Positions 1 through 27,506 of a stretch of 64,000 bases of DNA are shown piece after piece. Position 1 is the first letter of the stretch. Each line of letters begins with the position of its first letter. The notes below the pieces were generated by a model. It had not been told where the DNA came from and searched no databases. It was given only the letters and a program-made list of their open reading frames with translations. The stretch covers positions 62,001-126,000 of the forward strand of contig CAIYNU010000017.1 of the NCBI GenBank assembly GCA_903927615.1, in the 5' to 3' direction. A program made the translations under genes and the position numbers. This DNA is from an uncultured Rhodospirillales bacterium (GTDB lineage Bacteria > Pseudomonadota > Alphaproteobacteria > Azospirillales > Azospirillaceae).

Positions 1-1490
1 TCGAAGATCTGGTCGCCTTCGATCAGGGGCGCATGAACGATCGGGTGGCTGCCAGTGAAGGTGTTTACAGTCAATCCCGCATCACCTTGATTGTCGTGAT
101 GGTCCTGTCGTTGGGCATCGGTGTTGGCATGGCGCTGTGGATCTCGCTGTTGATCAGCCGCGGTCTCCGTCGGGCCGGCAATCTGGCCCAGGCCATCGCC
201 CAAGGGGATGTCAGTCAGACCATCGTCTATCAGGGCCATGACGAGATCGGTGACCTGATTCTGGCCATGAACGCCATGTGCGATAATCTGCGTGCCACGG
301 CCGGAATTGCCGAGATGATTTCCCAAGGGGATATCGGGGTTCAGGTGACACGCCGATCCGACAAGGATGTCTTGGGTTTGGCCCTGGAAACCATGGTGAT
401 CAACCTGCGGACCTCGGCGGAGATTGCGCAGGAGATCGCCAAGGGGAACCTCACCGTCAGGGTAAAGCGCCTTTCCGATCAGGATGTGTTGGGCATCGCC
501 CTGGAAAGCATGATTCAGAATTTGCGCCAGGTGGTGGTGGATGTTTCGGCCGCCGCCGAGAATGTGGCGGCGGGCAGCGAGCAGTTGAGCGCCAGCGCCG
601 AGACTCTGTCCCAAGGCGTTTCGGAGCAGGCGGCTTCGAGCCAAGAGGCGTCCAGTTCCATGGAGGAGATGGCGGCCAACATCCGCCAGAATGCCGACAA
701 TGCCGGCGAAACCGAGAAGATTGCGCGGCAATCGTCGGTAGACGCGGCCAAGAGCGGCGACGCCGTCAGCAAGGCGGTGGCGGCCATGAAAACCATCGCC
801 GAGAAGATCACCATCGTGCAGGAAATCGCCCGCCAAACGGATCTGTTGGCGCTCAACGCCGCCATCGAGGCCGCCCGGGCCGGCGAACATGGCCGGGGCT
901 TTGCGGTGGTGGCGAGCGAGGTCCGCAGACTGGCCGAGCGCAGCCAGGCCGCGGCGGCCGAGATCAGCGCCCTGTCGTTTCAGACCGTCACGGTTTCGGA
1001 AGAAGCGGGTCAGATGCTGACCCGGTTGGTGCCGGATATCCAGCGCACCGCCGTGTTGGTTTCGGAAATCAGCTCGGCGTCCCGCGAACAGAACACCGGG
1101 GCCGAACAGATCAACGTCGCGATTCAACAACTCGATCAGGTGACCCAGCAGAACGCCGCCGCCGCCGAAGAGATGTCCTCAACCTCGGAAGAACTGTCCA
1201 GTCAGGCCCAGCAACTTCAGTCCAGCATTTCGTTCTTTACGCTCGGCGACATCCAGCCCGCAGGTCCGCGGATGGCTCCGGTGCCGGTTCACGGCGCGTC
1301 CGGATCGGCGGGGCCGGCGATGATGCCGCGTCGGTCAGCGGCTCCGGTGGCCAAACGGGCGCCGCTGGCCAAACGTCAGATGGCGGTGGCGAATGGCGCG
1401 GCGGCGGGGGCCAAGGGGTACGCGCTGAAGCTTGATGACCACTATCAGGCGCATGGGGATGCCGAAGACAGCGGCTTTGAGCGGTACTGA
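1..1490 (+). CDS. methyl-accepting chemotaxis protein, 5' end outside window
   Basis: The reading frame is open to the left edge. The residues before the first ATG (position 33) match the end of the periplasmic region of the next receptor, so the gene starts upstream of the window. What is visible is one transmembrane helix, then three consecutive HAMP-like units (each with a D-x-LG or EIGD core and an NLR end), then a cytoplasmic signalling domain with the conserved hairpin tip ([20 protein letters not shown]). The C-terminus is a basic linker ending in GFERY, which fits the aromatic-x-x-aromatic pentapeptide used by some receptors to dock CheR and CheB. It is the first gene of the local che cluster. 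The ligand-binding part is not visible, so the signal is unknown. Confidence 0.95.
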
Positions 1491-1618
1491 GGGTCGCCGG
1501 CGCCATCGGGCCGGGCCTGGCCGAGCGACGATCCTGACCGGGGGCATGGAGCGACGGACGATCGCGGCGGTGGGCCGTCACTGTTTGAACGCCATTGAGG
1601 GACAAGGAGATCATCGTC

Positions 1619-3868
1619 ATGCGCTTCACCATCAAGGCCCGGTTGGCGTTCGGCTTTGCCGCCATCTTGGGACTCTCGGCGGTTTCGGCCTATTTGGGTG
1701 TGACCAATCTTGGACTGGTGAATGATCAGGTCCGGGCGGTGGTCGACGGTCCGGCGGCGCGGCAGGTGCTGACCCTGGACATGGTCAATGCCCTGTCGAT
1801 GATGGCGCGCACCGAAAAGAACCTGATTCTGGAAGCGGATGAGCAAGGCAAGATGGCCTATGTGGAGCGGCTCAGGAGCGAACGGGCGGCTTATGGCAAG
1901 CTTTTTGACCGCCGTCGGGAGATGGCCGCCGACGAAGGCAAAAAGAAACTCGATGCCCTGCGTGACATTTATAACGAGTATTCGAAATCACAGGATGAAG
2001 TGGTCGATCTGGCGCTGCGCAACGACTTGATCAAGGCGCGGGCGTTGTCCGCCAGGCGCGGCGACGACCTGATCGAAGACGGACTGAAGCGGGTTGCCGG
2101 ATTGAAGAGCGCCAACCCCGACCCCCAGGTGGCGGCCGCGCTTGCCGAGCTGCCGGTGCGGATGCTGCGGGCGCGCGGCAATGAAAAGGACCTGATTCTC
2201 GAGACCGACGACGCCCGGATGAAGGCGGTGGAAGAGGCCACCGACGGCGCGGTCAAGGCGGTCCAGGCTCTGTTGACCACGGTGCGTGACCATGCGGCGT
2301 CCGCTTCGCGGGAAGACGTCCAGCATCTCACCGCCACGTGGGAGGCTTGGCTGTCGGTTCACCAACAGATTCGCGATCTGGTCCTGGATAACAGCCAGAC
2401 CCGTGCCATGGCGATCTCCTTTGGCCGGAACCGTGAGTTACTCAAAAAAATTGATATCGCCGTGGCCGATTTGATGGCGTTCGATCAGGAGCGCATGACC
2501 GAGCGGGTGGCGGAAAGCGATCAGCTCTACACGGAATCACGCAAAACGCTGATCGCGGTGATCGCGGCGGCCTTGATCATCGGCATCGGCATGGCGCTGT
2601 GGCTCTCGCTCCTGATCAGCCGGGGTTTGGGTCGCGCGGGTCATCTGGCCAGGGCGGTGGCCGAAGGTGATCTTAGCCAGTCCATCACGTATAATGGGCG
2701 GGAAGAAATCGGTGACGTGATCCTGCTGTTGAACCGCATGGCAGCCAATCTGCGGGCAACCGCAGGGATCGCGGAAGAGATCTCCCGCGGGAACCTCACG
2801 GTTCAGCCCAAGCGTCTCTCTGACCAGGACGTGTTGGGGATTGCGCTGGAAACCATGGTGGCACGCCTGCGCGAGGTGGTGACCGATGTGTCGTCCGCCG
2901 CCGAAAACGTCGCCGCCGGCAGCGAACAGTTGAGTGCCAGCGCCGAAACCCTGTCCCAGGGGGTTTCGGAGCAGGCCGCCGCCACCGAAGAGGCGTCCAG
3001 TTCGATGGAACAAATGGCGGCCAATATTCGCCAGAACGCCGACAATGCCACCGAGACCGAGAAAATCGCCCGTCAGTCGTCCGACGACGCCGCCAGGAGC
3101 GGCGAAACCGTGACCAAGGCGGTGGTGGCCATGAGAACCATCGCCGAGAAGATCACCATCGTTCAGGAAATCGCCCGCCAGACCGATTTGCTGGCGCTCA
3201 ATGCGGCCATCGAGGCCGCCCGGGCCGGTGAACATGGCCGGGGCTTTGCGGTGGTGGCGAGCGAGGTGCGCAAGCTGGCCGAACGCAGTCAGGCTGCGGC
3301 GGCCGAGATCAGCGCGCTGTCATCCAAGACTGTCTTTGTCTCGGAAGAGGCGGGCACCATGCTGGCGCGACTGGTGCCCGACATTCAACGCACGGCCAGT
3401 CTGGTTGCCGAGATTTCGTTGGCGTCCCGGGAGCAGAACGCCGGGGCGGAACAGATCAACGTCGCGATCGAGCAACTGGATCAGGTCACCCAGCAGAACG
3501 CCGCCGCCGCCGAGGAAATGTCGTCAACCTCCGAGGAACTGTCCAGCCAGGCCCAGCAGCTTCAGGCCACCATGTCCTTTTTCTCGGTGATGGCCGATGC
3601 CCAGGTCAGAAAGCGGTCGGCGTCGGGGCCGGGCCACGCCGGATCCAACGGGTCCGGGCGGACCGGCCCGGCCGGTCAGGTCAACCCGGCCGTTCAGAGT
3701 CCGGATCCCCGTCGCCAGGGCGTCCGGATCGTCAAACGGCCGTCGCTGGCGAAGCGGTCATCGGGAGAACCGCCGGCGAAGATGGGGGGCAAGGGGTTCG
3801 CCTTGAAGCTCGACGACCACCACCATGGCTATAGGGACGCGGAAGATGACGGTTTTGAGCGTTACTAA
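1619..3868 (+). CDS. methyl-accepting chemotaxis protein with tandem helical sensor
   Basis: A full-length receptor of 749 residues. I chose the ATG at 1619 because AAGGAGA lies about 8 bases upstream; an in-frame TTG at 1595 has no such site. TM1 is about residues 8-26 and TM2 about 309-333. The roughly 280-residue periplasmic part contains two related helical segments with the motifs EKNLILE (near 66) and EKDLILE (near 189), suggesting a bimodular helical-bundle (HBM-like) sensor. Two HAMP units follow, then the signalling domain with the usual hairpin tip and a C-terminal tail ending GFERY. It is a close paralogue of the preceding receptor, which has three HAMP units. The ligand is unknown. 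Confidence 0.95.
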
Positions 3869-4361
3869 GACGGGCGCGGCGGCTCTCCAGGCGGGCGGCG
3901 ACGGCGGCGGTCCCGGGCTCCAGGTTCTGACCCTGGGACTGGCTGACGAAATCTTTGCCATCGAGACCGCGCGCGTTCGCGAAGTTCTTGACCTGATGCC
4001 GATCACCCGTGTTCCCAACAGCCACCCGTTCATCAAGGGCCTGATCAACGTCCGGGGCAAGGTCGTCACCGTCACCGACCTGCGCGTCAAATTCGGGATG
4101 GCGCCGGCCGAACCCACGCGGGATACCCGGATCGTGGTCACCGAGGTGCAGATCGGCGGCGAGCCCACCCTGGTCGGGGCGCTGGCCGATCGGGTCCATG
4201 AGGCGACCGAACTGCCCGCCGCCGTGATGGAGGAGGTTCCCAAAATCGGGATGCGCTGGCGGGCCGAGTTTATCCGGGCGATCGGCAAGCGCGGCGACGA
4301 TTTCATCATCATCGCCGATATCGATCAGGTCTTCGCCGCCGCCGACCTGATCGCGCCCTGA
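3846..4361 (+). CDS. cheW: CheW chemotaxis coupling protein
   Basis: CheW links receptors to the histidine kinase CheA in the polar arrays. The protein (about 171 residues) has the CheW SH3-like core: [11 protein letters not shown] near the start, then [20 protein letters not shown], then the VTEV strand and a final IADIDQVF strand. The start is uncertain: ATG at 3846 (MTVLSVTK) is taken, but an in-frame ATG at 3825 also exists; neither has a strong ribosome site. Either way the gene overlaps the 3' end of the preceding receptor, which suggests translational coupling and makes these receptors its likely partners. Confidence 0.92.
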
Positions 4362-4403
4362 TCCCTCACGCCGTAACCCGAACGTTGATCGGCCCTTTGC
4401 TGC

Positions 4404-5255
4404 ATGCCTGACACCTTTTCAGACAGTCCCCGCCTCTCGGATCGAGAGTTCGACCATCTGGCCAGGCTGGTCGAGGCGCAAGCCGGCATCCGCATGCCGC
4501 CGGGCAAGCGGACCATGCTGGAAGGTCGCCTGCGCCGCCGGCTGCGGGAACGGGGGATGCGCGATTTCAGAGAGTATTGTCATTTTCTGTTCGACCAGGG
4601 CGGTTTGGAGGAAGAGCTGGGCGATCTGATCGATGTGGTCACCACCAACAAGACCGATTTCTTCCGGGAGCCCAAACATTTCGAAATTTTGTCCGGTGCC
4701 ATCCTGCCCGGCCTGGTCCGGCGCGGCGTCGGCATCAGCCGTCCGCTTCAGGTGTGGAGCGCGGGCAGCTCGATCGGCGCCGAGGCCTATACCCTGGCCA
4801 TGGTGCTGGCCGAATACAGGTCGAGTTGTCCGGGTTTTCATTTCCGGATTCTCGGCACCGATATCTGCACGACGGTGCTGCGGACCGCCAGCCGGGCGAT
4901 CTATCCCGAGGACATGGCGCAGCCGATCGGGCATGATCTCCGGCATCGCTATCTGCTGCGCAGTCTTGATCGCAAAGCGCGGCAAATCCGGATTATTCCT
5001 GAGTTGCGGGCGGCGGTCGAATTTCGTCACCTGAATTTCATGGCGAGCGAGTACCGATTACCCTCGATGCAAGATGTGGTGTTTTGTCGTAACGTTATTA
5101 TTTATTTTGACAATGTGGTGCGGTTTGCCGTGTTGTCGCGCATTTGCTCGTGTATTGCGACTGGCGGTTATCTATTCATGGGGCATTCGGAAACTCTTTC
5201 TGGTTTTACCTTGCCACTGCGCCAGGTCGCCCCCACCGTTTATGTCAAGCTATAA
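4404..5255 (+). CDS. cheR: CheR chemoreceptor glutamate methyltransferase
   Basis: CheR uses S-adenosylmethionine to methylate receptor glutamates for adaptation. The 283-residue protein has the all-helical N-terminal domain, the TTNKTDFFRE motif (residues 80-89), the SAM loop SAGSSIGAEAY (119-129, a slightly divergent form of SAGCSTGEEPY), the CRNVIIYFD motif and GYLFMGHSETL near the end. Both upstream receptors end in a possible CheR docking pentapeptide. Codon use changes sharply in the last third: about 5070-5250 is AT-rich (for example the codons of NVIIYFD), unlike the GC-rich flanks, although the protein motifs continue unbroken. Confidence 0.95.
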   Translation: MPDTFSDSPRLSDREFDHLARLVEAQAGIRMPPGKRTMLEGRLRRRLRERGMRDFREYCHFLFDQGGLEEELGDLIDVVTTNKTDFFREPKHFEILSGAILPGLVRRGVGISRPLQVWSAGSSIGAEAYTLAMVLAEYRSSCPGFHFRILGTDICTTVLRTASRAIYPEDMAQPIGHDLRHRYLLRSLDRKARQIRIIPELRAAVEFRHLNFMASEYRLPSMQDVVFCRNVIIYFDNVVRFAVLSRICSCIATGGYLFMGHSETLSGFTLPLRQVAPTVYVKL

Positions 5256-5297
5256 TGTCGGGGTATCGGGATTGGAAATAGGGTGGGATGACGCGAA

Positions 5298-5957
5298 ATG
5301 AGTTACGATCACCACGATGCGTTTCGGGATCGTTTGAACGCCTTACCACTGGGCGCCGGGCGGCGGGGGATTGCGGCCATGGTTTTGGTTGAAATTGTTC
5401 GCTGGACGCCCGATGCGGACTCCCAATGTTCCAAGACGGCGGAAGCGTTGGGTGACCTGTTGAACCTTCGGATTGGTGACGTCTTGCTGGCGCTGGAGAC
5501 ACTCGGCTCGCTCGGTGTGATCGAACAGGTTCGCGAAGGGGCAATCGCCGCCATCCATCTGAGGCCGATGGCCCAGACGAAAACCGGCGAACAGTTGCAG
5601 GCGGAGATTGCCCAGGCGATCCAGAGCCATAGTGCCTGGAAGCGCCGTTTGCGCCATGCCATCGACACCGGCAGCGCCGATTTTACCGTCGAGGAGGTTG
5701 CCCGGGATGACCTTTGCGAATTCGGCCGGTGGCTGGCCGGGGCGTCTTTTGCCGAACGGGACCGGGATGGTCCTTACAAGGTGATCTGCCATCTTCATGC
5801 CCAATTTCACCGGGTGGCTGCCGCCACCCTGCAATTGGCGCTGAGTGGCCGTCAGGAGGACGCCGAGCGGGCCATGAGCGCCAGCGGGGCCTATTCCCAG
5901 GCGTCGTTGCGTCTGAGCACGGCGCTGAATAGCTGGCGCGGCTCGGTTGCCACATGA
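5298..5957 (+). CDS. winged-helix-like plus CZB zinc-binding domain protein
   Basis: This 219-residue soluble protein sits between cheR and cheB and overlaps cheB by the ATGA tetranucleotide. Residues about 20-90 look like a small helical, winged-helix-like domain ([20 protein letters not shown] then a strand region). Residues about 108-215 fit the chemoreceptor zinc-binding (CZB) domain: H111-x-x-W114, C140-x-F-G-x-W145-L, then H167-x-x-x-H171. Those His/Cys/His/His residues are the expected Zn ligands. CZB domains are known in receptors and diguanylate cyclases and can sense zinc or oxidants. A stand-alone protein with a possible nucleic-acid-binding head is unusual. The CZB assignment is fairly secure; the function of the head is inference. 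Confidence 0.75.
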
Positions 5958-7087
5958 GCCGGCCGCTGCCACGGAAGTTGCGGGTCCTGGTGGTCGATGA
6001 TTCCGCCTCCGTCCGCGAGACCTTGAAGGAAATCATCGGTTCGGATCCCGATCTGATGGTGATGGGGACGGCGTCTGACCCTTATGCCGCGGCCCGGCTG
6101 ATTGCGGCGGAGGTTCCGGACGTCATCCTGCTCGACATCAAGATGCCGCGGATGGACGGCATCACCTTTTTGCGCAAGATCATGCAGCAACGGCCGATTC
6201 CGGTGGTGATGTGCTCGTCCCTGACCCTGGACGGCACCGAGACGCTGTTCGACGCCTTGGAGGCCGGGGCGGTGGACATCATTCCCAAGCCGAAGGTGGG
6301 CTCCCGGGAATTCCTGATGGAAGCCCGCATCTGGGTCTGTGACGCCATCAAGGCGGCGGCGCGGGCCAAGCTCCGGCTCCGGCCGACCCCCGGTCTGACC
6401 GGTGCAGGTCCCGAAGACAAGCGGCAGTTGGGGACCGCCAAGCTGACCGCGGATGTCATTCTGCCGCCGCCCCGGCCACGGAAGAACCCGACCCCAGGGC
6501 AGGGGACCGAAACGGTGGTTTGTATCGGCGCATCGACCGGCGGTACGGAATCCCTGAGAACCCTGTTGGAAAGCTTCCCGCTGGACATGCCGGGCACCGT
6601 CATCGTCCAGCACATGCCGGAAAAGTTCACCGAGGCCTTTGCCCGGCGGCTCGACGGGCTGTGCGCCGTGACGGTCCGGGAGGCCCGGGAAGGTGACACC
6701 ATTTTGCGCGGGCAGGTCTTGATTGCCCCCGGCAACCGGCATACCCTGATACGTCGGAGCGGCGCCCGTTATTTCGTCGAAATCAAGGACGGTCCTCTGG
6801 TTTGCCGCCACCGGCCGTCGGTGGACGTGCTGTTCCGGTCGGCGGCCCAATATGCCGGAGCCAATGCCATCGGGATTCTGATGACCGGGATGGGAGATGA
6901 CGGCGCGCGGGGATTGCTGGAGATGATGCAGGCCGGCGCGCACACCGTGGCCGAGGACGAGTCCACCTGCGTGGTGTTCGGCATGCCCCATGAGGCGATC
7001 AAGCGGGGGGCCGCGCGCAGTGTGCTGCCGTTGGATCGGTTGCGGGATGACATCATTCGCACGTGCGCGACGCGGGAGAGCGTCTGA
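5954..7087 (+). CDS. cheB: CheB receptor methylesterase/response regulator
   Basis: CheB removes methyl groups from receptors after phosphorylation by CheA. The 377-residue protein has an N-terminal receiver domain (VVDDSASV acidic pocket, phosphoacceptor D61 in LLDIKMP) and a C-terminal methylesterase domain. The catalytic triad is visible: S194 in IGASTGG, H220 in VQHMP and the Asp in TGMGDDG (near 315-316). Its ATG overlaps the stop of the CZB gene and its TGA overlaps the cheD start, so the three genes are very likely translationally coupled. An approximately 40-residue Pro/Lys-rich linker joins the two domains. Confidence 0.97.
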
Positions 7088-7758
7088 TGTTACACCATCG
7101 CCCCGCTCGAACCCGGCTGTCACCGACCCGCAATCTGCTGCCGGGTGATCTTTATTGCGACCGCATGCCCCAGTGCTTGGGGACTGTGTTGGGGTCTTGT
7201 GTTGCCGTCTGTCTGTGGGATTCTCAGTTGCGCTTTGGCGGCATGAATCACTTTATCTTGCCCGACCGGCCGTCGAATGCCGAGTCCTCGACCCGGTTCG
7301 GCGATGTCGCGATCCCGCGACTGGTCGAAGCCATGCTGGAACTGGGCAGCAATATCCGTCATCTCCAGGCCAAGCTGTTCGGCGGCGGCTATGTGTTGCG
7401 GGCGGGGGATCCGGCGTTGTCCACCGGGCGGCGCAATGTCGGGATCGCGATTTCCGAATTGCGGCGCTGGAGAGTTCCCATCGTGGCAAGCCGGTTATCG
7501 GGAACCCAGGGTCTGGTGATCCGCCAGTGTACCGATTGCGGCGATGTCTGGGTGCGTCCCACCGGCGTCATGGACCGAAAGCTGGAACCGGCCGCCGACT
7601 TCGAGGACCTGTCCTGGTTTTCCGAGGATGTTGCGACCCCGCTGGTCGCCCGTGACCGGGAGGGCTTGCCCGTCGCCATCCATACCCGCTCGTCGGTCGG
7701 TGCGACCCAATGGTGCGAGACCTGCACCTCATCGCCGTTCGCCTGGCGGCGGACGTAA
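7087..7758 (+). CDS. cheD: CheD receptor glutamine deamidase
   Basis: CheD deamidates receptor glutamines to create methylation sites and in some species works with CheC. The catalytic cysteine is C38 in VLGSCVAV, the histidine is H55 in GGMNHFILP, and T33 lies in the expected position before the cysteine. I chose the ATG at 7087, which shares bases with the TGA of cheB (TGATG); an in-frame GTG at 7063 lies inside cheB. The 223-residue product carries about 50 residues after the core, including a CxxC-like WCETC near the end, longer than typical CheD. No cheC is present in the window. Confidence 0.93.
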   Translation: MLHHRPARTRLSPTRNLLPGDLYCDRMPQCLGTVLGSCVAVCLWDSQLRFGGMNHFILPDRPSNAESSTRFGDVAIPRLVEAMLELGSNIRHLQAKLFGGGYVLRAGDPALSTGRRNVGIAISELRRWRVPIVASRLSGTQGLVIRQCTDCGDVWVRPTGVMDRKLEPAADFEDLSWFSEDVATPLVARDREGLPVAIHTRSSVGATQWCETCTSSPFAWRRT

Positions 7759-13345: not shown

Positions 13346-15160
13346 CTAAACTAGGTAATACAATCCAGTTTCGATAGTCTTGTGATTTCTAATGCTTGCG
13401 CAATGGTCGCAGGCACTGACATCGGTGAATCGCTCGCAGGCAAAACGCACCGCCTTGAGGGTAGCAGAGTCGGCGTCGTCGCGCCCTTGCGGAAAAATAT
13501 GCTCGGGAGCATACCAATCTTGAAAATTCAGGCGGTTGATGGCCGCCAGAAAGTCTGGACGAACGCCGGCAAGGATCACTGTGATCCCAAGCTTATCAGC
13601 GTCCCGTAAAAAATGCTCGATTCGTTCCAAGCAAACAGCATCAGGATTACGAAGGCGCTTGATGCGAAGAACGATGACGCGAGTGCCCTGAGTAACTGCC
13701 CGCCGTTTGATTTCATGCAAATAGCGGTCCAGTTCAGGCGCCGCACCAAAGAATACCTCGCCTTCAAAATCGAATATGATGGTTGAAGTGCAGATGAGGT
13801 CGTTAGCCTCACGCTCGCGCACGACACGTTCAGGACTGATGACCATCTCTGTTGCCCGAAGTTTTGCCGCGCGCGGGACGAACAGCACAATCGACATCGC
13901 GACACCCACCAAGACCGAATATTCGACGCCAACGAATACCGCTGTCAAGGCGGTGATCAGCACCAGTCCGGCGTCATAGGTCGTGGCCCGAAAGGCATAG
14001 CGAATGCGTCCCGGGTCAATCAGCCGTGCCGCCGTAACCACCAACAGGCCGGCCAAGGCAGCCTTAGGGATGTACGGGGTCAACGGCCCGAACAGCAGCA
14101 GCGCCCCCGCGACGGCCCCGGCGGCGATGACTCCCGACATCCGCGTCGCCGCTCCCGCTTGAAAGTTGATCGCCGACCGTGAAAGGGAGCCCGAACCTGG
14201 CAAGCAGCGAAAGAACCCACCGACGAGATTGCCGACCCCTTCTGCTAGGCACTGTCGGTTGTAGTCTAACTCCTGGCGAGTATGGATAGCGATGGACTTT
14301 GCCACCGCCAGTGCTTCGACCAGCCCCAGAAAGGCAATGGCGAAGGCGCTGGAGGACAGTTCGGATATCCATTCGAACTTGATTTCCGGAATATGCGGTG
14401 AGGGCAGGCTGGTCGGCACCGCCCCGACCACGGCGATGGCTGCCTTGCCAACAGCGTCCGGTTGGGTCCATCCAAAAAGAAACGCTGCCCCGGCCACCAG
14501 CACCAGCGTCACCAACATATCCCATGGCGGAAGCCGGTAGACGCGCACCACCTTGCGCAGGATAAGGGCAAGCGCAACGGTCGCCACGCTGATCGCCACC
14601 GCCTTGAGATTAGGTGAATCGCCGTGAGCGAGAGTCAACCAGACTCGATTCAGGATCGTTTGGTGCGCCGTCCCGAGATCTTTGACGCCGAGAAGGTTGG
14701 AGATTTGCCCAATGGCCAGCAACAGCGCGGCACCGCCCATGAAGCCAAGAATGACGGATTCGGAAATGTAGCGCGTCAGGTCCCCCAACCTGAATACCGC
14801 AATCAGAATCTGGATGGTGCCGACCATGACGCCAAGAAGAAACATGCCCTCGGCTGCTTCGATATGCGCATCAGGATCGAAGAACGCCAGGGCGCTAAAG
14901 ACCACGAGGGAAATCGCGCTGGTCGGACCGTTGATCAAATGCGACGAGGAGCCAAGACAAGAGGCCACGGCGGTGATGATGATGGCCGAGTACAGGCCGT
15001 ACCGCGGGTCGACACCGGCTAGGAGGGCGTAGGCCATGCCTTGGGGCAAGGCGATCGCGGCGACCGTCAACCCAGCGAGGAGGTCACAGCGAGCCTGCTC
15101 CCATCGATAGGTAACGCGGAAGTTCTGGCCGATCAATCCTGCCCTAATCAGTGCAACCAT
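13346..15160 (-). CDS. SulP-family anion permease with STAS domain
   Basis: A 604-residue inner-membrane transporter of the SLC26/SulP family, which carries sulfate, bicarbonate or other anions. The signature LTVAAIALPQGMAYALLAGVDP lies near residue 30 and about 12 hydrophobic helices extend to about 420. The cytoplasmic STAS domain (about 440-560) follows, with an unusual Cys/His-rich tail (FTDVSACDHCASIRNHK). The substrate cannot be fixed from sequence; the neighbouring sulfate-binding protein makes sulfate plausible. A truncated second sulP copy lies at 16801-17007. An 8-base inverted repeat is present in its upstream region (GACACCGC/GCGGTGTC near 15190-15210). Confidence 0.92.
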   Translation of the reverse strand: MVALIRAGLIGQNFRVTYRWEQARCDLLAGLTVAAIALPQGMAYALLAGVDPRYGLYSAIIITAVASCLGSSSHLINGPTSAISLVVFSALAFFDPDAHIEAAEGMFLLGVMVGTIQILIAVFRLGDLTRYISESVILGFMGGAALLLAIGQISNLLGVKDLGTAHQTILNRVWLTLAHGDSPNLKAVAISVATVALALILRKVVRVYRLPPWDMLVTLVLVAGAAFLFGWTQPDAVGKAAIAVVGAVPTSLPSPHIPEIKFEWISELSSSAFAIAFLGLVEALAVAKSIAIHTRQELDYNRQCLAEGVGNLVGGFFRCLPGSGSLSRSAINFQAGAATRMSGVIAAGAVAGALLLFGPLTPYIPKAALAGLLVVTAARLIDPGRIRYAFRATTYDAGLVLITALTAVFVGVEYSVLVGVAMSIVLFVPRAAKLRATEMVISPERVVREREANDLICTSTIIFDFEGEVFFGAAPELDRYLHEIKRRAVTQGTRVIVLRIKRLRNPDAVCLERIEHFLRDADKLGITVILAGVRPDFLAAINRLNFQDWYAPEHIFPQGRDDADSATLKAVRFACERFTDVSACDHCASIRNHKTIETGLYYLV

Positions 15161-16755: not shown

Positions 16756-16800
16756 TTTGTGAACCCTTCTACATAAAATTTCCCTTCAGGGAGTTCTCGT

Positions 16801-17007
16801 GAGCCATATTCCGTGGGAGAATGCCGTCAGTGGTGGTATAGAGGCCGACCCGTGGGTCGGCGTCAGCGATCAGGGCATGGGCCATGCCCTGGGGCAGCGA
16901 GATCGCCGCCACGGTCAACGCCGCCGGAAAATCCCTGCCGATGGTCTTCCAGGGCAGTTGCGCACCGAAAATATGGTGCCGGACTCGGCGATACCCGCAT
17001 CGGTCAT
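16801..17007 (-). pseudogene. truncated, frameshifted second sulP gene
   Basis: From an ATG at 17007 (complement, preceded by GGGGAA) the frame reads MTDAGIAESGTIFSVRN. After a frameshift near 16958 it continues LPWKTIGRD, then FPAALTVAAISLPQGMAHAL and the DADPRVGLYT block, which is the N-terminal signature of SulP transporters. It stops matching after about 65 codons, so over 500 residues are missing. It is distinct in sequence from the intact sulP at 13346, so it is the remnant of a different paralogue and not a recent copy. Confidence 0.8.
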
Positions 17008-17062
17008 GATGTTCCCCGAAATGCCGTTGTTTGAATGATGGTAAAAGCCAATGCTGGACCGT

Positions 17063-18127
17063 TTAACGGGGCTTGGGCGTATAGACGGTATCGATGATGC
17101 CGTTGTCGGCGAAGAATTTCTGCTGCGCGTCTTCCCAGTCCCGGGCGATACTGGTCACCGGGAACAGGTTCATGGGCGGCAGAAGCGCGGCATATTTCTT
17201 CAGTATCTCGGGCTTGTAGGGCCGATAGCCGTCGCGAGCGATGATCTCTTGAGCGTCATCGCTGAACAGGTAGAGCAAGTAGGCACGTGCCAGCCGAGCC
17301 GCGTCGGCTTTGGTCAGGTTGGCATCGACCCAGGCCACGGTCGGTTCGGCCAGGATGCTCACCGGGGGATAGACGATCTCCAGATTACCTTTGGACTCGG
17401 CAACTTCGCGCAGTGCTTCGTTTTCCCAGGCCAAGTGAACATCGCCGATCTGCTCGATGGCGAAGGCGGTGCCGGCCGCGCGGGCGGCTGGCACCAGGAA
17501 AGGCGCGTGCTCGTACAACGCCTTGAGAAAGCTGCGGGCCTCTGCTTCACTGCCGCCGCGGGTAACCACCGCGCCCCAGGCCGCGAGCGCCGTAAGCTTG
17601 CCGTTGCCTGACGTCTTGGGATCGGGGGTCATGACCTCGACGCCTGGTTTGACGACATCGGGCCAGTCGCGGATATCGTGGGGATTGCCATGCCGGACCA
17701 CGAAGACGATGGTCGACGTGTAGGGGTGCGAGTTGTTGGGCAGGCGCCCGGCCCAGCCATTGGCGAGCAAGCCGCGCTTATGCAATGCTTCAACGTCAGA
17801 TGGCAGTCCGAGCGTCACTACGTCGGCCTTCAGTTCTCCCGACACAACCTGACGGGCCTGTCGAGACGAGCCACCATGGGATTGGTGAATCTCGACGGAA
17901 GGGCCGCCGTCCTTAAGGGTGCGAGCCTGGAAGTGAGGATTGATGTCCTTGTACAACTCCCGAGTCGGATCATAGGAAACGTTCAGAAGTTGTATCCGTG
18001 CCGAGCTTTCGCTATTTTTCGCCACAATTAGGGTGAGGCCCAGGGCCGCTGCCACCAATGCGCCGACGTTGAGCCAGGACACCGAAGCAAACCACGAGCC
18101 CGCGTTTCGCCAGGAAAACGTCGCCAT
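17063..18127 (-). CDS. sulfate ABC transporter periplasmic substrate-binding protein
   Basis: A 354-residue Sbp/CysP-type binding protein. The start at 18127 is preceded by a GAGGGG ribosome site; the frame extends 16 codons further without support. A signal-anchor helix is at about 20-38, then LLNVSYDPTRELYKDIN, SHGGSSRQARQVVSG, ADVVTLGLPSDVEAL and TPDPKTSGNGKLTALAAWG, all characteristic of the sulfate/thiosulfate binding family. No cysT, cysW or cysA permease genes are beside it, so it either pairs with a transporter elsewhere or is an orphan left by rearrangement; the adjacent sulP remnant supports the latter. Confidence 0.88.
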   Translation of the reverse strand: MATFSWRNAGSWFASVSWLNVGALVAAALGLTLIVAKNSESSARIQLLNVSYDPTRELYKDINPHFQARTLKDGGPSVEIHQSHGGSSRQARQVVSGELKADVVTLGLPSDVEALHKRGLLANGWAGRLPNNSHPYTSTIVFVVRHGNPHDIRDWPDVVKPGVEVMTPDPKTSGNGKLTALAAWGAVVTRGGSEAEARSFLKALYEHAPFLVPAARAAGTAFAIEQIGDVHLAWENEALREVAESKGNLEIVYPPVSILAEPTVAWVDANLTKADAARLARAYLLYLFSDDAQEIIARDGYRPYKPEILKKYAALLPPMNLFPVTSIARDWEDAQQKFFADNGIIDTVYTPKPR

Positions 18128-18219
18128 TGCCCCCCCTCTGCCTGGGATATCAGGAAGCCAGCAAGGGCCCCCCAAAACCGCAGACGTTTATGTGAAATAC
18201 CAAAGCGTACACCACTTGA

Positions 18220-19114: not shown

Positions 19115-19531
19115 CTAGCCCGCCGCCGGCTTGGGCTGGGGTTCGGCCGTCGGGACGGAGGCGTCGCCGGACTCGCCGTCGTCGTCTTCCGCGTCCTCGG
19201 TGGAAGAGCGGCGCTTGGCCCGTCGGGCCCCGGACTTGGCGATGGCAGAGTCAAAGCCGCTTTCCGCGCCGTCTTCGAGGCCGCGGCGGACGATGCTGTC
19301 CTGGGGCAACAACTCGACCAGGAAGACCGCGCTGAAAACCACGCCATAGGACAGGCCAAAGGCGGTGTGGTAGACGCCGGATCGCGCGGAAGATTTGACC
19401 TTCTGGGCCGCGGCCTTGGCGGAAACGGTGGCCTTGGACGCCGCGTCGCTGAAGGGGCTGGTGGCGCTCTCGATGGCCTCCCCCAGGTTGGCCAAAGGAT
19501 CGACGCTCACGGTTGCTTCGTTGGTAGTCAT
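19115..19531 (-). CDS. small membrane-associated acidic-tailed protein of the metal locus
   Basis: The 138-residue product starts at 19531, preceded by AAAGGAGAAAG. Residues about 5-55 are Ala-rich and amphipathic (DAASKATVSAKAAAQKVKSS). Residues about 57-80 are hydrophobic (YHTAFGLSYGVVFSAVFLVE), followed by a conserved-looking LLPQDSIVRRGLEDGAESGF block. The tail is basic, then Glu/Asp-rich, then Pro-rich. I do not recognise a named family. Its location beside P-type ATPase genes, and the Gly/Ala hydrophobic segment, suggest a membrane accessory protein; that is inference. Expression is from the minus strand, away from the ExoD-domain gene. Confidence 0.7.
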   Translation of the reverse strand: MTTNEATVSVDPLANLGEAIESATSPFSDAASKATVSAKAAAQKVKSSARSGVYHTAFGLSYGVVFSAVFLVELLPQDSIVRRGLEDGAESGFDSAIAKSGARRAKRRSSTEDAEDDDGESGDASVPTAEPQPKPAAG

Positions 19532-19802
19532 GGAATCTTTCTCCTTTACCAGTCGCGCTGCAATCGACCGGGTCACGCGAACCAGCCAATTGTATTTGGG
19601 CTTTTCGTGTCGTTTCCCCAGGATTATGGGCATCGAACACATCAAGGATGGCCCTGGGGTTCAACACCCGCAAAAGGACCATCCACAAAATACCAAACCC
19701 CATCGGGATGTCATTTGTTTCGTCCGAGGTTGCGTATTCACCATGCTGTGGCTGTGATTTATTGACCTGGACTCCGAGCTGTTCAGCCAACCTCTATCCC
19801 GC

Positions 19803-21252: not shown

Positions 21253-23814
21253 TCAGAAGTCCTGCACGCCATGCTCACTCAGCAGCAGGGCCAGTTTCTC
21301 CCGTTCGGCCTGGATCTTGGCGGCTTTCCTGAGCGGCAACAGGCCGTTTGCGACCGCCGCTAAACCGCCGACCTGATTGAAAACCATGGAATGCATGACG
21401 CCAAAATTGGAGAACAGAGCGCCAGCGATGCAAACCGCATTCGTTCCTACGATCATATACCAGCTATTGCGAGTGTTGCGGTGCAGCTCGGTCGAGATGT
21501 CGCGCACCTGTAGAAGTTTTTCCAGGCTTTCTTCCATGAAGACGATCTCGGCCGTGTCTGTGGCGATACTGGAAGCGCCACGCAGAGAAATGGACACGTC
21601 CGCCTGCTTGAGTGCGATAGAGTCGTTGACGCCGTCGCCGATGAAGCACACCCGGCGGCCTTCTTCTTGCAGGGTCTTGACGTATTGGGCTTTGTCCTGG
21701 GGCAAAACTTCGGCGAAATAGCGGTCCATGCCCAACTTGCGCGCCAGCCTCTCGGTCGGACGCTGATGATCGCCGGAGATGATGGCCAAGTGCCTGGCGC
21801 CCCGCTCACGCAGGCCGGAAATCACATCCTGCGCCTCATTGCGTTCGGCGGCCCGCAGCTCCAGGGCGCCACCCAGGGCGTTGTCCACGCCCACCAGGAT
21901 CATGGAATTGCCTTCGTCGTGGACCCGTTCAACCTCGTGATCCAACTCAGGCGGCAGCTTGATGCCCTCGTGCCGGAGATAGCGGGCGCTGCCGACGCGC
22001 ACGATATGCCCGTCCACACCCACCGACACGCCGTAACCCACCGCGTATTTGGTCTCATCGGTGTCGGGCATGGGCAGGTTCAGGTGATGGAAGCGGTCCA
22101 AGATCGCTTTGGCGATGGGATGGCTGAACTTGTTCTCGGCTGCGGCCGCCCAGCTCAGTATCCGGGTTTCATCGTAGCGGTCATAGGTCAGGATGCGCCC
22201 CACTTCCGGCCGTTCGCGGGTCAGGGTGCCGGTCTTGTCGAACAGGAAGGTATCGACTTCGCGCAGGCGTTCCAGGGCACGGCCCGACTTGACCAGAATG
22301 CCCTGCTGCGCCGCCAGGTTGAGCGTCGACAGCATGGCGATGGGCGCCGCCATGCGGATTCCTGTGCCCAGGTCGCAATTGACCACAGCCACGGCCGGAT
22401 TGACACCCCGGGTCGCCAGGGTCAGGGCCCCCAGCGCCAGGGTGGGCAGAACGGCGCTGTCGGCCAGTTGCACGGCCCACGATTGGGCCTTCAGGGTATA
22501 GCCCGAGGTTTCATTGAGTATTTGGGCCAGCTTGGCTGCCGTGGTCTCCTCGCCCGCACAGGTCACGGCCACCCGCACCTTGCCGGCGATCATCGTGGTC
22601 GCTGCAAAGACCTTGTCGCCCTTTACCTTTTCCACCGGGGCGGATTCGCCGGTCAGGGCGTGCTGGTCGACCATCCCCATGCCGTCGACCACCTCGCCAT
22701 CAACGGGGACGGATTCGCCCGTGTGGATGACGATGATGTCGCCGGTCTTGATCTGGTGCAGCGAGGTTTCCACCACGGTTCCGTCGACCTCCAGCCAGAC
22801 GAAACGGGCTTGCTTACCGAACACGCTGAGCAGCATGCGCTTGGAATTCCGCTCGGTATGTTCCACGAGCTTGCGCGCCACGCTGAGCGACAGGCCGAGA
22901 ATCGACCCGGCCAGGACTTGGTTGGTGGCAAGGCAGGCCGCCACCACCACCGCGTCCAGAAGGTCCACGCCCAGGCGCTTCTCTTTGACCACCACGTCGT
23001 AGGCGCCCTGGAAGGTGGGGATAACGGAATACAACAAGACGGCGGCGCTGAGCGGCGCCAGGGCTGGCGCAATAAGGGTGGTAAAGGCGGCTAATACCAC
23101 CGCGGTTACCGACACGGGCAAATCGTAATCGACTTTCGACAGAGAGAAGTCGTCGGTCTTCGCCAGAGCGGCATCCAGCAGATCGACGATGTGACGCTTC
23201 TGTATATGTTTCTGGTTGTACTGGACCAGGACGGTGCCGGTCAGTTCCTGGATGGTGAACTTATCTACGCCGAAGGCATTGACCAAGTCGTTCTCGATGG
23301 CCTGGTGCAACGCCGCGCGGCGGCGCAGAATGGGATTTTCGAAGCGGATGCGACCGGGCATCTCGTGACGCACGACCCAGGTGGACAGGTGTGTGCCATA
23401 GCGCTGCATCTGGGTGCGGGTGGGAGTCCCCAGGCCGAAGGCTTCCGCCAGGGTGACGGGCCGCTGAGGGGGAATGGCGCCGCTGAGAGTCTGCGAAATT
23501 TCACGGAGCTGCCGGTTGATCCCTGACGCGCTGGGCGTGAAGCGAATTTCCGCCTTTCGGTCGCGCGCATCGACCACCACGCGCTCGACGAAGGGCAGCG
23601 AAAATGCACGTTCAAAGAACAGCCGAGCCGTGGCGCCCGCAGGACGGCCGGCGAAGCCTGCATCGAAAATGCGCAGCGTGCCGTGTTCAGAAACATCCAC
23701 ATGGGTAGCCGCGACCGTGACGGGATGATTCGAGCGTGTTATCAGGCTCTTAGCGCCTTCGAGGGAGGGCCGCCCTCGGCTGTTGAGATAGGACATCGCA
23801 GGTTTATGCCGCAC
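21253..23814 (-). CDS. P1B-type metal-transporting ATPase with HMA-like, CxxC-free N-terminus
   Basis: An 853-residue heavy-metal P-type ATPase with complete catalytic machinery: TGES (388-391), phosphorylated D526 in DKTGTLT, SHP (H565-P566) and GDGVND (726-731). The N-terminus has two HMA-like folds (about 45-115 and 140-225) with no CxxC; the second has the PGRIRFENPILRRR motif. The transmembrane metal-site motif is VVNCDLGTG (C480), with a single Cys and no CPC or SPC. Such atypical motifs occur in less-studied P1B subgroups, including the P1B-6 group of FezB. The transported metal is unknown. The start is GTG at 23814 or ATG at 23796; neither has a clear ribosome site. Confidence 0.9.
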   Translation of the reverse strand: MRHKPAMSYLNSRGRPSLEGAKSLITRSNHPVTVAATHVDVSEHGTLRIFDAGFAGRPAGATARLFFERAFSLPFVERVVVDARDRKAEIRFTPSASGINRQLREISQTLSGAIPPQRPVTLAEAFGLGTPTRTQMQRYGTHLSTWVVRHEMPGRIRFENPILRRRAALHQAIENDLVNAFGVDKFTIQELTGTVLVQYNQKHIQKRHIVDLLDAALAKTDDFSLSKVDYDLPVSVTAVVLAAFTTLIAPALAPLSAAVLLYSVIPTFQGAYDVVVKEKRLGVDLLDAVVVAACLATNQVLAGSILGLSLSVARKLVEHTERNSKRMLLSVFGKQARFVWLEVDGTVVETSLHQIKTGDIIVIHTGESVPVDGEVVDGMGMVDQHALTGESAPVEKVKGDKVFAATTMIAGKVRVAVTCAGEETTAAKLAQILNETSGYTLKAQSWAVQLADSAVLPTLALGALTLATRGVNPAVAVVNCDLGTGIRMAAPIAMLSTLNLAAQQGILVKSGRALERLREVDTFLFDKTGTLTRERPEVGRILTYDRYDETRILSWAAAAENKFSHPIAKAILDRFHHLNLPMPDTDETKYAVGYGVSVGVDGHIVRVGSARYLRHEGIKLPPELDHEVERVHDEGNSMILVGVDNALGGALELRAAERNEAQDVISGLRERGARHLAIISGDHQRPTERLARKLGMDRYFAEVLPQDKAQYVKTLQEEGRRVCFIGDGVNDSIALKQADVSISLRGASSIATDTAEIVFMEESLEKLLQVRDISTELHRNTRNSWYMIVGTNAVCIAGALFSNFGVMHSMVFNQVGGLAAVANGLLPLRKAAKIQAEREKLALLLSEHGVQDF

Positions 23815-23862: not shown

Positions 23863-24153
23863 TCAGCCGCCAAGGCGCGCACGCACCTCGGCGCGCTTGG
23901 CCTTCCAGAAGCCCGTGCGCGGCGCGGCCGATGGCGGAACCTGCTTCTGGCGTCTGCGTTTCTCGGCCATCTTGTCGGTGGCGTCCTCGATCTTCCCCAC
24001 CACCAGGCCGGCGACTTTGGTATAGGCCTCCCCAATCGCCCCCACCGCCGATTGGAAGCCGCCCTTCAACCGGGAAACGGGGGAACCCGCCGTGGCGGGA
24101 TCAACGGGTCCGGCCGGCGCTGGCTGCGGGGCCTGGTCAGTGTCCGTGGTCAT
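23863..24153 (-). CDS. small basic-tailed accessory protein of the metal locus
   Basis: A 96-residue protein starting at 24153 behind AGGAGACTTG. The first 25 residues are Pro/Ala/Asp-rich. Residues about 27-62 form an amphipathic, Gly/Ala-rich helix (LKGGFQSAVGAIGEAYTKVA then GLVVGKIEDATDKMAE). The last 30 residues are strongly basic (KRRRQK, KAKRAEVRARLGG). No TM helix or known family is evident. It sits 48 bases upstream of the P1B ATPase gene on the same strand, so the two are probably co-transcribed. A membrane-curving or scaffold role would be speculation. Confidence 0.7.
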   Translation of the reverse strand: MTTDTDQAPQPAPAGPVDPATAGSPVSRLKGGFQSAVGAIGEAYTKVAGLVVGKIEDATDKMAEKRRRQKQVPPSAAPRTGFWKAKRAEVRARLGG

Positions 24154-24200: not shown

Positions 24201-24239
24201 AGGCTAATCACAAAAAACATATTGTCAACTAGTTTTGTG
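24201..24239. promoter_or_regulatory. divergent promoter region with inverted repeat
   Basis: Between the divergent 96-residue-protein and pseudo-ATPase genes lies a 7-base inverted repeat (CACAAAA 24209-24215, TTTTGTG 24233-24239). On the minus strand TTGACA (24223-24228) and TAGCCT (24201-24206), 16 bases apart, could be a promoter for the 96-residue protein. The repeat arms bracket this -35, a good place for an operator. The A6CATATT 12-mer shared with 18545-18556 lies inside. Confidence 0.4.
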
Positions 24240-24278
24240 GGATTGTAGACTTCTGGCGCCCCTTCGGAGTAGCCCTTG

Positions 24279-26834
24279 ATGACCGATGACGCCGAGCCGG
24301 TTTCGGCCACGAACAATCCCTCTCCCACGGTCATTGGCCGGCGCAATCCCGGCGACGCGCCGGCCCGACCGGTCGGCCGGGCCGAGTGCTTGGACCTGCG
24401 CATCCAGCAGGGCCGCCTTAGCTTCACCCACCCGGCCTTCAAGGGCGAAGGTTCGGACGCCATCGTGCGGCGCTTCCTGGAAGCGGCTTTTTCCCTGTCC
24501 GAGGTGCGGGCGGTCGACATCTGCCGCGAGCGCGGGCATGTGGCCATCGAACTGACGCCACTGGCCGATCCGGCTCAGGTCTGGCCGCGCCTGGGGGGGA
24601 TGCTGCGCAACCACTTCGTCGCCGACGATTCTCGATTGGTCCGGGGCATCGCCACCATCAGCCTGGCGCCCCCGGAACCGGGCGCCAAGATTCACATCGG
24701 CAAAGTGGGGCAAAGCCTGGCGGTATTTCGCGGCAAGGAAATCACCCCCAGCGTCTTGCGCATCTCGAATCCGCTACTGCGCCGCCGCGACGTGCAGTAT
24801 CGCCTGCGGGAGAACCTGCGTTGGGTCCATGGGGTGCATGACATTCGCTCGAACCGCCTCTTTGGCAGCGCCACCGTCTTCTACGATCCCGGCGTGATCG
24901 ACACGGATACGCTGCTGCACCAGTTGAATCTGGCGTGGCCAAGTCTGATCGACGGCCCGTCTCCGCAGCGGGTGCCCTACAAGTTTTTCATCGGCGGCGG
25001 CTTGCTCGGCTTGTGCGCCACCGCGACGTTCGCCTATCCCGCTCTGCTCCCGTGGGCCACGGTGGCCGTGATCCTGTATTCCCTGCCCAACGTATACAAC
25101 GCTGCGCGAGAGCTGGCCAAAGGTAAAGTGGGTCTGTACGCGATGTTTACCGCCCGCTTGGCCCTTTTGATGGTGACGCAGCTTCCGCTGGTCTTGTCCC
25201 TGAATGTCACCCTCACCCAGATGTGGACACATTTGGCGCGAGGCCTGGCCCGGAACGCCGAGCGGCGCCTGTTTGCCGGCCAGCGGCGGCGCTTTGTGTT
25301 GGCCCGAGTGCGCGATCCCAATACCGGCACAATCAATGTGGGTGTGGATCAGCTACCGCCGGATGCCATGATCGTGTCGGAGGCGGGCGAGTACATCCCT
25401 GTGGACGGCGTCATCGTCGATGGACTTGCCGCCATCGACGAATATGTGCTGACCGGCGTTCGCTCCCTGGTGAACAAGAGCACGGGCGACACCGTTTACG
25501 CCGGCACCCAGGTGAGCGATGGCCACATTGCCGTGCGGACCATCAAGAAGGGTGGCGCTACCGCGTCGGCGGCCCTGGCGGCCTCGCTGCCCTACAGGCT
25601 CGTCGCCGATCTGCCCTCCACGGAAGAAGCCCAACGCATCGGCGACCGCAACGCCCGTTTCGCCCTGGCGGCGGCCGGCGTGGCACTGGCGGTAACCGGC
25701 ACGCCGCCCCTATCGCAGGCCATTATCCGCCCCGATTATGCCACCGCGCCGTGGCTCAGCTCGCATTTGTCGGCGCTGACCGCCATTGCCGATGGCTTGC
25801 CGCAGGGCGTGCTCCTGCGCAACCCGTCGGCGCTGGACATCCTGCCCACCGCCGATATCTTCGTTTTTGACGATGGGGTCGATTTTGATCGCAAGCACCT
25901 GACTGTCGCCCGCATCGTCGCCCCGGATGCTCTTCAGGCGAGGGAGGCGCTGGCACTTGCCGTCGCGGCGTTTGCCGGCCACGACACGGCCCGGGCGGAT
26001 GCCCTGAATCAGGCGGCGCTGTCGCTTGGCGTTTCGCACGTCCCCATTGGTTGCCGTAGCACCCGCGCCGGCGCCGTTCGCATCCGCGACAAGGCCGGGC
26101 GTCACTTCACGGTGGCGACCCACGCCTTTGCCCGGCAGCATGGGTTTACTCACTTGCCGAGTTTCCTGCCCTCGCAACTGGCGGGGGGCACCGCCGACGC
26201 CGATCTGGCTCCGGTGGTGGTCGCCCATGACCGGACTGTCGTCGGGGTGATCCTGTTCAACCGGCGTGGCCGGGGTATCGTGTCCGATACGGTCGCAGCA
26301 CTGAGGGCGCGCAACAAGCAGGCGCGCTTCCTCCATCTGTCCTCGTCGCGCCAGGACCTGGCCGAGGCGCGAACCGCCCATTTGGGTTTGGACGCGGTCT
26401 TCGGCGGCGCCGACCCTCTCGCCAAGGCTACCGCGCTGCGCAATCTCAGCCAGCGGGCCATTTGGATCGGCAAGGGCTCGGATCCCAGCGGCGCCCTGGC
26501 TCGGCAGGCCAGCGCCGTCAGCATCTCCGTCGACGGGTTGGGCCACCTGGGCGAGGACCAGGCCGATATCGTGCTGCTGCGGAGCGATCCCTTGGCGATC
26601 CTGACTGCCGACACGCTGTCGCGGCAGCACGCCGCCCGCCTGAAAGCCGACTACCGCGCGATCAATACCGCCAATGTGGCGGGCTTGGCCGGCGCCCTCT
26701 TGGCTGGATTCGGCACCATGGAGGTTAGTTTGCTGTCCCATGTCGGCACGGCGGCCGTGTATTTTTCTCGCAAGTCCGCGCTGGAGCGGGGGCCGTACCG
26801 AGCCCCGTCCCACCACGCCCGATCCACGGCGTAA
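24279..26834 (+). CDS. catalytically dead P-type ATPase paralogue (pseudo-ATPase)
   Basis: An 851-residue protein that aligns along its length with the P1B ATPase at 21253: HMA-like domains (including ISNPLLRRRDVQYRLREN), TM helices, actuator, and P and N domains. The catalytic signature motifs I could check are lost. TGES has become TGVR (392-395), DKTGT is DDGVD (531-535), the HP motif is HDTARAD, GDGVND is GKGSDP, and the membrane Cys is absent (DYATAPWLS). The frame is open, GC-rich and free of stops, so selection has kept the protein while ATP hydrolysis is very unlikely. It could be a structural or regulatory partner of the active ATPase. ATG at 24279 is preferred over TTG at 24276. Confidence 0.85.
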   Translation: MTDDAEPVSATNNPSPTVIGRRNPGDAPARPVGRAECLDLRIQQGRLSFTHPAFKGEGSDAIVRRFLEAAFSLSEVRAVDICRERGHVAIELTPLADPAQVWPRLGGMLRNHFVADDSRLVRGIATISLAPPEPGAKIHIGKVGQSLAVFRGKEITPSVLRISNPLLRRRDVQYRLRENLRWVHGVHDIRSNRLFGSATVFYDPGVIDTDTLLHQLNLAWPSLIDGPSPQRVPYKFFIGGGLLGLCATATFAYPALLPWATVAVILYSLPNVYNAARELAKGKVGLYAMFTARLALLMVTQLPLVLSLNVTLTQMWTHLARGLARNAERRLFAGQRRRFVLARVRDPNTGTINVGVDQLPPDAMIVSEAGEYIPVDGVIVDGLAAIDEYVLTGVRSLVNKSTGDTVYAGTQVSDGHIAVRTIKKGGATASAALAASLPYRLVADLPSTEEAQRIGDRNARFALAAAGVALAVTGTPPLSQAIIRPDYATAPWLSSHLSALTAIADGLPQGVLLRNPSALDILPTADIFVFDDGVDFDRKHLTVARIVAPDALQAREALALAVAAFAGHDTARADALNQAALSLGVSHVPIGCRSTRAGAVRIRDKAGRHFTVATHAFARQHGFTHLPSFLPSQLAGGTADADLAPVVVAHDRTVVGVILFNRRGRGIVSDTVAALRARNKQARFLHLSSSRQDLAEARTAHLGLDAVFGGADPLAKATALRNLSQRAIWIGKGSDPSGALARQASAVSISVDGLGHLGEDQADIVLLRSDPLAILTADTLSRQHAARLKADYRAINTANVAGLAGALLAGFGTMEVSLLSHVGTAAVYFSRKSALERGPYRAPSHHARSTA

Positions 26835-26879: not shown

Positions 26880-27506
26880 ATGGGAGCGTGTTGCCGTTCG
26901 TGTTCGGAAACCGCCGAAGGCATGACGGCCCGTTATCGTCGGGTGCTGACCGCCGTATTGGTCATCAACGCCATCATGTTCGTGGTCGAGAGCATCTGGA
27001 GCCTGATCGCAGGATCGACGGCGCTACAGGCCGATGCCCTGGATTTTCTGGCTGATACGTTTACCTATGGGTTGACGTTGAGCGTTCTGGATTCAGCGCC
27101 TGATGTTCGAGCGCGCGCTGCTTTGTTTAAGGGGGGCAGTCTCGGGGCAATGGCGTTCCTGGTGCTTGCTGCGGCAACCTGGCGCGCCATCGCGGCAGTT
27201 CCACCCGAACCCGAAACAATGGGGGTGATCGCGGTCCTCGCTCTGACGGCAAATTTCACCAGCGTTCTGCTGCTCTATCGATTCCGTGATGGCGATGCGA
27301 ACATGGCGTCGGTCTGGCAATGCAGCCGCAATGATGCCATCGGCAACCTCGCGGTCATCGCCGCGGCAATCGGCGTCACGGTCAGTGGGAGCGTATGGCC
27401 CGACATCGCCGTTGCGGTCGCCATGGCGGGTTTGTTTCTGGGATCGTGCCGGAAAATTTGCAGGCGGGCCTTGGGGGAGTTAGAGTCCCTTGAAATCCCT
27501 GGATAA
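26880..27506 (+). CDS. short CDF-type cation transporter
   Basis: A 208-residue inner-membrane protein with about six helices related to cation diffusion facilitators but without the C-terminal cytoplasmic domain. The start carries a CCRSC metal-binding-like motif (residues 4-8). TM2 has D55-x-x-x-D59 and TM5 has C148-x-x-x-D152 (CSRNDAIGN), which would form the transport site, with Cys replacing the usual His. Short CDF-like proteins with CSRNDA are a known variant. It lies 45 bases after the pseudo-ATPase on the same strand and is probably co-expressed, consistent with metal handling. Confidence 0.8.
   Translation: MGACCRSCSETAEGMTARYRRVLTAVLVINAIMFVVESIWSLIAGSTALQADALDFLADTFTYGLTLSVLDSAPDVRARAALFKGGSLGAMAFLVLAAATWRAIAAVPPEPETMGVIAVLALTANFTSVLLLYRFRDGDANMASVWQCSRNDAIGNLAVIAAAIGVTVSGSVWPDIAVAVAMAGLFLGSCRKICRRALGELESLEIPG

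Follow-up and report, generated by a model that had tools for sequence, protein, structure and literature searches.

P-type ATPases are taught as a single catalytic chain which provides both the ATP work and the ion path, with helpers that are at most small or unrelated. In KdpFABC, the P-type ATPase subunit works with a second membrane subunit, KdpA, a channel-family protein. Dead paralogues that partner a live one are known from pseudokinases and from the degenerate halves of heterodimeric ABC transporters. P1B6-like ATPases are encoded together with a small single-helix PacL-type helper, and the P1B6/PacL passages of the paper in question describe no pseudo-ATPase (PMC9374683). In apicomplexans, a guanylyl cyclase is fused to a P4-ATPase domain, and in the relevant part of PMC7858053 the Asp of the P. 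falciparum alpha protein appears to be needed. Literature searches, judged by titles and the beginnings of abstracts, returned no recognisable pseudo, inactive or heterodimeric P-type ATPase, and a search on the gene set described here gave no paper about this cluster among the matches listed.

The window, that is, the whole 64,000-nucleotide stretch of DNA analysed, carries the gene of a pseudo P-type ATPase of 851 aa (24279-26834, +) near that of an active ATPase of 853 aa (21253-23814, -). We propose, with a probability of roughly 0.6, that the pseudo-ATPase and the active ATPase at 21253 form a two-ATPase complex in which the former is a dedicated non-catalytic subunit. If true, the pseudoenzyme-partner principle of kinases and ABC transporters extends to the P-type ATPase superfamily; the dead-with-live logic is the same, and the folds are unrelated. 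The arrangement would resemble KdpFABC in joining a P-type ATPase to another membrane subunit, and would differ from it in that KdpA is not a P-type ATPase. The apicomplexan system, as presented in that part of PMC7858053, likewise has a P-type fold serving beside another function, but is fused and eukaryotic.

The frame of the pseudo-ATPase is uninterrupted over its 851 codons, as the initial annotation had stated, and runs from an ATG at 24279 to a stop codon at 26832-26834, with GGAG about 9 bases 5' of the start and an in-frame TTG at 24276. Its only Pfam match is the actuator domain PF00122 (73 bits, cut-off 28); the HAD domain PF00702 has no Pfam match in it, though it was found in the active neighbor. 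By descent it is a member of the P-type ATPase superfamily, given the PF00122 score over the cut-off and a fold that matches P-type ATPases. The catalytic motifs DKTGT, TGE and GDGxND are all absent from the window copy. TGVR replaces TGES (residues 392-395, 25452-25463, +), which removes the actuator Glu, DDGVD replaces DKTGT (residues 531-535, 25869-25883, +) with its first Asp (D531) retained, GKGSDP replaces GDGVND (residues 731-736, 26469-26486, +), and the remnant of the N (ATP-binding) domain (25923-26318, +) lacks HP. These losses, listed in the initial annotation, were confirmed against the active neighbor. Since D531, the HAD motif II Ser (S688, 26340-26342, +) and the HAD motif III Lys (K716, 26424-26426, +) are kept, the "complete loss of catalysis" read from them applies to the ATP-driven cycle, but not to every catalytic residue.

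The active partner has TGES, DKTGT and GDGVND, the M4 sequence NCDLGTGIR, and Pfam actuator, HAD and HMA_2 domains. A CPx or related Cys motif in M4, the mark of P1B heavy-metal ATPases, is found neither in the pseudo-ATPase (IRPDYATAP) nor in the partner (NCDLGTGIRMAAP). The lone M4 Cys of the active protein is Pro in the pseudo-ATPase, so the loss of a membrane Cys is real, but it says little because Ser or Ala stands there in 5 of the 20 aligned active homologues. The proposal that the pseudo-ATPase is a metal-binding scaffold is unsupported, because no metal-binding Cys motif was seen in the protein. Like the systems treated in the P1B6/PacL passages of PMC9374683, the cluster encodes a small single-helix protein, here called F13, and the active partner has an HMA_2-type N-terminus; unlike P1B6-like relatives, the partner lacks the M4 SC and M6 HN motifs (M6 reads HSMVFN, not LHNG), and F13 has no Pfam match at E 0.01. 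Classification of the active pump as P1B6 (ferrosome-type) was rejected on the grounds of its M4 and M6 motifs.

The predicted model of the pseudo-ATPase (mean pLDDT 80.8) combines a P1B-type architecture with two additional N-terminal domains and still has the N-domain fold. The extra domains are predicted alpha/beta units (residues 38-202, 24390-24884, +), which differ among homologues and have no Pfam match. The best structural match of the model is 7r0g_B (Z 28.8, rmsd 14.6 over 591 residues), the matches being P1B ATPases with Kdp structures also among those of the structure searches; by sequence, the matches among solved structures are ordinary pumps, the best being of P1B type. The protein is thus like CopA and ZntA in its eight predicted long helices and the same order of actuator, P and N domains, and unlike them in lacking TGE, KTGT, HP, ND and CPx. 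For the active protein, single-chain prediction gave a poor model (pLDDT 62), which was not used for comparing the pair.

Searching with the window protein was misleading. It gave no orthologue among 82 genomes of the family, 385 of the class and 398 of the phylum, own genome included, where its own copy was the sole pseudo-ATPase returned and any other matches were ordinary ATPases; the query sets comprised 59, 82, 82, 385 and 398 genomes with the own genome counted, the order set being the same 82 as the family set. The pseudo-ATPase was not found in the other four species searched of the window genus, nor was a relative found in the viral contigs searched. The family emerged only via a search with the active neighbor and a reading of the adjacent genes. 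This query returned nine close relatives (57-74% identity) and a distant one (39%), and eight of the nine close ones have a pseudo-ATPase in the same locus, 33-44% identical to the window copy, the ninth lying at a contig edge. A profile built from ten pseudo-ATPase rows and scored on the eight genomes carrying these loci separated full-length pseudo-ATPases (1117-1304 bits) and the first piece of a reduced one (616) from active relatives (375-424) and all others (at most 211). At E 1e-90, this profile found a pseudo or active match in 1/220, 4/229, 3/208 and 4/218 sampled relatives, each set including its centre, and a plasmid of Methylobacterium radiotolerans with a pseudo-ATPase was added as a named record.

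In total, 18 pseudo-ATPases were found across 15 genomes or records of Alphaproteobacteria, Gammaproteobacteria and Verrucomicrobia, namely the window genome, Rhodoblastus acidophilus, Azomonas macrocytogenes, Xanthobacter oligotrophicus, five MAGs from the search with the active neighbor, M. radiotolerans, G1123, G1092, G1411, G1443 and G1699. All 15 also have an active relative of the 21253 ATPase, in the same locus in 14; the exception is G1092, with about 1.3 Mb between the active gene and its two pseudo-ATPase genes. The pseudo-ATPase family is real, conserved and tied to one active ATPase lineage, and the recurrence of the live-plus-dead pair across phyla points to the dead copy as a functioning partner rather than a gene in decay. 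The reverse dependence does not hold, because G1262, G1486 and G1614 hold an active relative only, and this pump type can thus exist without the pseudo-ATPase. No pseudo-ATPase was found in these three genomes at E 1e-90, a threshold that would miss reduced genes of the M. radiotolerans type in the remainder of the genomes, and no reduced one was seen in the stretches fetched from them (19 kb, 16 kb and a 3.3-kb contig); their active relatives form a clade of their own with DMGTGIR in M4. In the tree, the pseudo-ATPases form one clade (support 1.0) and the active proteins another (support 0.972), and a recent local duplication as the origin of the pair was rejected on account of these two separate clades, the deep order of which may be distorted by long branches.

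Alignment counts cover 18 pseudo and 20 active sequences; the rows of L098, which is the L066 locus again, and those of the more distant ATPases from L054, L056 and L071 are not included. The core losses are common to all homologues: the Glu of TGE, the His of HP and the final Asp of ND are absent from 18/18 pseudo-ATPases, and the Lys of DKTGT is gone in 17/18. Retained are the P-site Asp (17/18), the motif II Ser/Thr (17/18), the motif III Lys (16/18), the first Asp of GDG (12/18, not including the window copy) and the M4 Asp (18/18), which in the window is D486 in the signature RPDYATAP (25728-25751, +). Every one of these residues is present in 20/20 active sequences. The pseudo lineage has as its signature an M4 (R/G)PD(Y/F) combined with a P-site (F/L)D(D/N); its most divergent member, L117 (9188-11863, G1411), has VRPDY in M4 and Glu-Lys at the P site.

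With Asp, Ser and Lys kept, the pseudo-ATPase might still be capable of some phosphate chemistry. The P domain might accordingly act as a HAD-type phosphatase, or D531 might be phosphorylated by another donor, for which the frequencies of Asp, Ser/Thr, Lys and the first GDG Asp just given would speak. We consider such a residual enzyme improbable, given that the second Mg-binding Asp is gone in every member, that the window copy also has Lys within GDG, and that one reduced member is without both the HAD Ser and the Lys.

Selection on the family was estimated as NG86 dN/dS from homologue pairs of at least 55% identity, and thus not from the window copy, the nearest relatives of which are about 42-44% identical. 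Pseudo-ATPase pairs gave 0.15, 0.19 and 0.22 among three genomes and 0.21 between the two copies within G1092, and the active pairs of the same three genomes gave 0.05-0.07. The homologues are thus under purifying selection. Per domain, pseudo-ATPase values in the three-genome comparison were 0.08-0.35, none being higher. When neutral drift was simulated at 0.3 substitutions per site, frames acquired a mean of 6.5 stops and 0/100 remained open, and the intact frame is therefore not a matter of chance. A decaying pseudogene would account for the motif losses and for faster evolution than that of the partner, and decay would have been visible as a dN/dS near 1 or as frameshifts; with all 18 frames open, dN/dS well below 1 in each domain and a conserved M4 signature, we regard it as extremely unlikely.

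Pairwise distances among pseudo-ATPases are about 2.5 times those among their active partners and correlate closely with them (r = 0.911), none of 20,000 label permutations reaching this value (largest 0.807); one of the two pseudo copies was used for Spartobacteria and for G1092. Correlated distances would also arise from inheritance of the whole gene cluster. Together with the linkage in 14/15, this co-divergence supports the non-enzymatic role as partner subunit that the initial annotation had proposed, in which the two proteins would presumably be physically associated.

The two proteins are constrained in different regions. Over 11 matched pairs, M3-M4 is the best-conserved part of the pseudo-ATPase (identity 0.58) and the N domain the least (mean pairwise identity 0.34), and in the active protein the P domain ranks highest (0.86-0.88). 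In the pseudo-ATPase, constraint has shifted away from the ATP-binding domain and onto M3-M4, where both proteins share an Asp. Such a pattern, in a gene surrounded by transport genes, could also be expected if the pseudo-ATPase were a passive transporter, a separate channel or carrier in the same pathway as the active pump. This explanation seems rather unlikely to us, as it does not say why most members retain the actuator and P-domain folds.

Actuator, P and N domains are all retained in 15/18 pseudo-ATPases. The ATP-binding domain is missing in the other three (L068:4184-6412, L119:1839-4649 and L099:33668-35509), and full length, which the window copy does have and from which the initial annotation had argued, is thus not the key point. 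L099:33668-35509, annotated as hypothetical protein MRAD2831_RS63730 on M. radiotolerans plasmid pMRAD05, is a pseudo P-type ATPase in stripped-down form, in which the actuator domain was not seen by profile alignment either. Along the lineage, the ATP-binding and actuator domains have been shed step by step, with the membrane core left in place. These reduced members make it testable which parts of a P-type ATPase stay useful without the chemistry, and the most reduced one, a hypothetical protein on a Methylobacterium plasmid, illustrates how ordinary annotation hides the system.

In eight loci, the pseudo and active genes are adjacent and face away from each other, and TAGTTGACTA occurs within one mismatch in the interval of 6/8. 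The window copy of this element, TAGTTGAC(A), lies in the divergent promoter region (24222-24231, -). The sole other match within one mismatch in the distinct loci is elsewhere, in L063, and 0.25 chance matches are expected over the whole window; the count is descriptive because the motif was chosen after seeing the sequences. A small ORF (96 aa; 23863-24153, -) lies between both ATPase genes, upstream of the active gene, and weakly similar small ORFs occupy the same place in several loci.

A shared element in the divergent promoter region would also suit a regulator or sensor, which would bind the same ion in the M4 site and switch the active pump while not being a fixed subunit itself. The M4 Asp kept in every member and the actuator, P and N domains kept in most of them agree with this, our second choice and a doubtful one. 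The domains which would carry the signal are lost in the reduced members, and a subunit fits the linkage and co-divergence at least as well.

A dedicated subunit could work as follows. An ancient P-type ATPase paralogue would have lost its ATP-driven cycle, and the active and dead proteins would be packed together in the membrane. The active protein would hydrolyse ATP and transport a cation without CPx cysteines to hold it. The dead one may contribute membrane surface, a P-domain with a regulatory role and perhaps a share of the ion path, and F13 might help assembly. More tentatively, the two may form a heteromer in which the dead protomer, through its M4 Asp site, adds a further ion path or a gate that is powered in trans as the live protomer hydrolyses ATP; we see this as conceivable, with the odds against it.

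The neighboring genes suggest that a hard cation or metal is handled together with sulfate. F13 (19115-19645, -; one hydrophobic helix by eye) and an ExoD-like protein (PF06055; 19861-21168, +) are each found in 14/15 pseudo-ATPase-bearing genomes or records, missing only in G1443, a 5-kb contig. An APC-superfamily permease (PF00324, PF13520; 15292-16755, -) occurs in 13/15, being absent there and on the Methylobacterium plasmid. Two F13 members had no Pfam family at E 0.01, and two further members did not match PacL/DUF1490 or DUF6110 at E 1. A sulfate-binding periplasmic protein (17063-18175, -; TIGR00971 and NF008022 above cut-off) is accompanied by a SulP permease in 6/15. A J-domain-like small protein was seen in five of these genomes or records and a TauE-type exporter with at least 200 residues in three, counts that cover the loci other than those fetched last. 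Absences of genes from loci are not firm because the flank lengths differ.

In the window, the intact SulP-family sulfate permease gene with a STAS domain, assigned by profile matches, lies at 13346-15160 (-). A sulfate-binding protein beside or near a SulP permease, as here and in L065, L067, L068, L069, L092 and L094, is an unusual combination, and no ABC permease is among the gene families shared by the pseudo-ATPase loci. An ORF of 97 codons (16772-17062, -), located between the genes of the APC permease and the sulfate-binding protein, scores 43 bits with the SulP profile and resembles a broken-off piece of a second SulP gene. The J-domain-like protein (L062:10235-10843, L063:10592-11050, L064:13946-14380, L065:10950-11384 and L069:13150-13578) has an HHPDRGG-type motif by eye and a hydrophobic C-terminal stretch, and two members had no Pfam match at E 0.01. 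Directly downstream of the pseudo-ATPase gene, 46 bases 3' of it, begins a short CDF-family protein (208 aa; 26880-27506, +), which is not in the gene families common to other loci. Na/Ca exchanger-type and CorA-type proteins lie near the active ATPase in two loci (L096:12993-14159 and L099:35512-36405), a hint at hard cations. At the beginning of the window, 33-7758 holds chemotaxis-type genes, with two methyl-accepting receptors and CheR-, CheB- and CheD-like ORFs recognised by eye.
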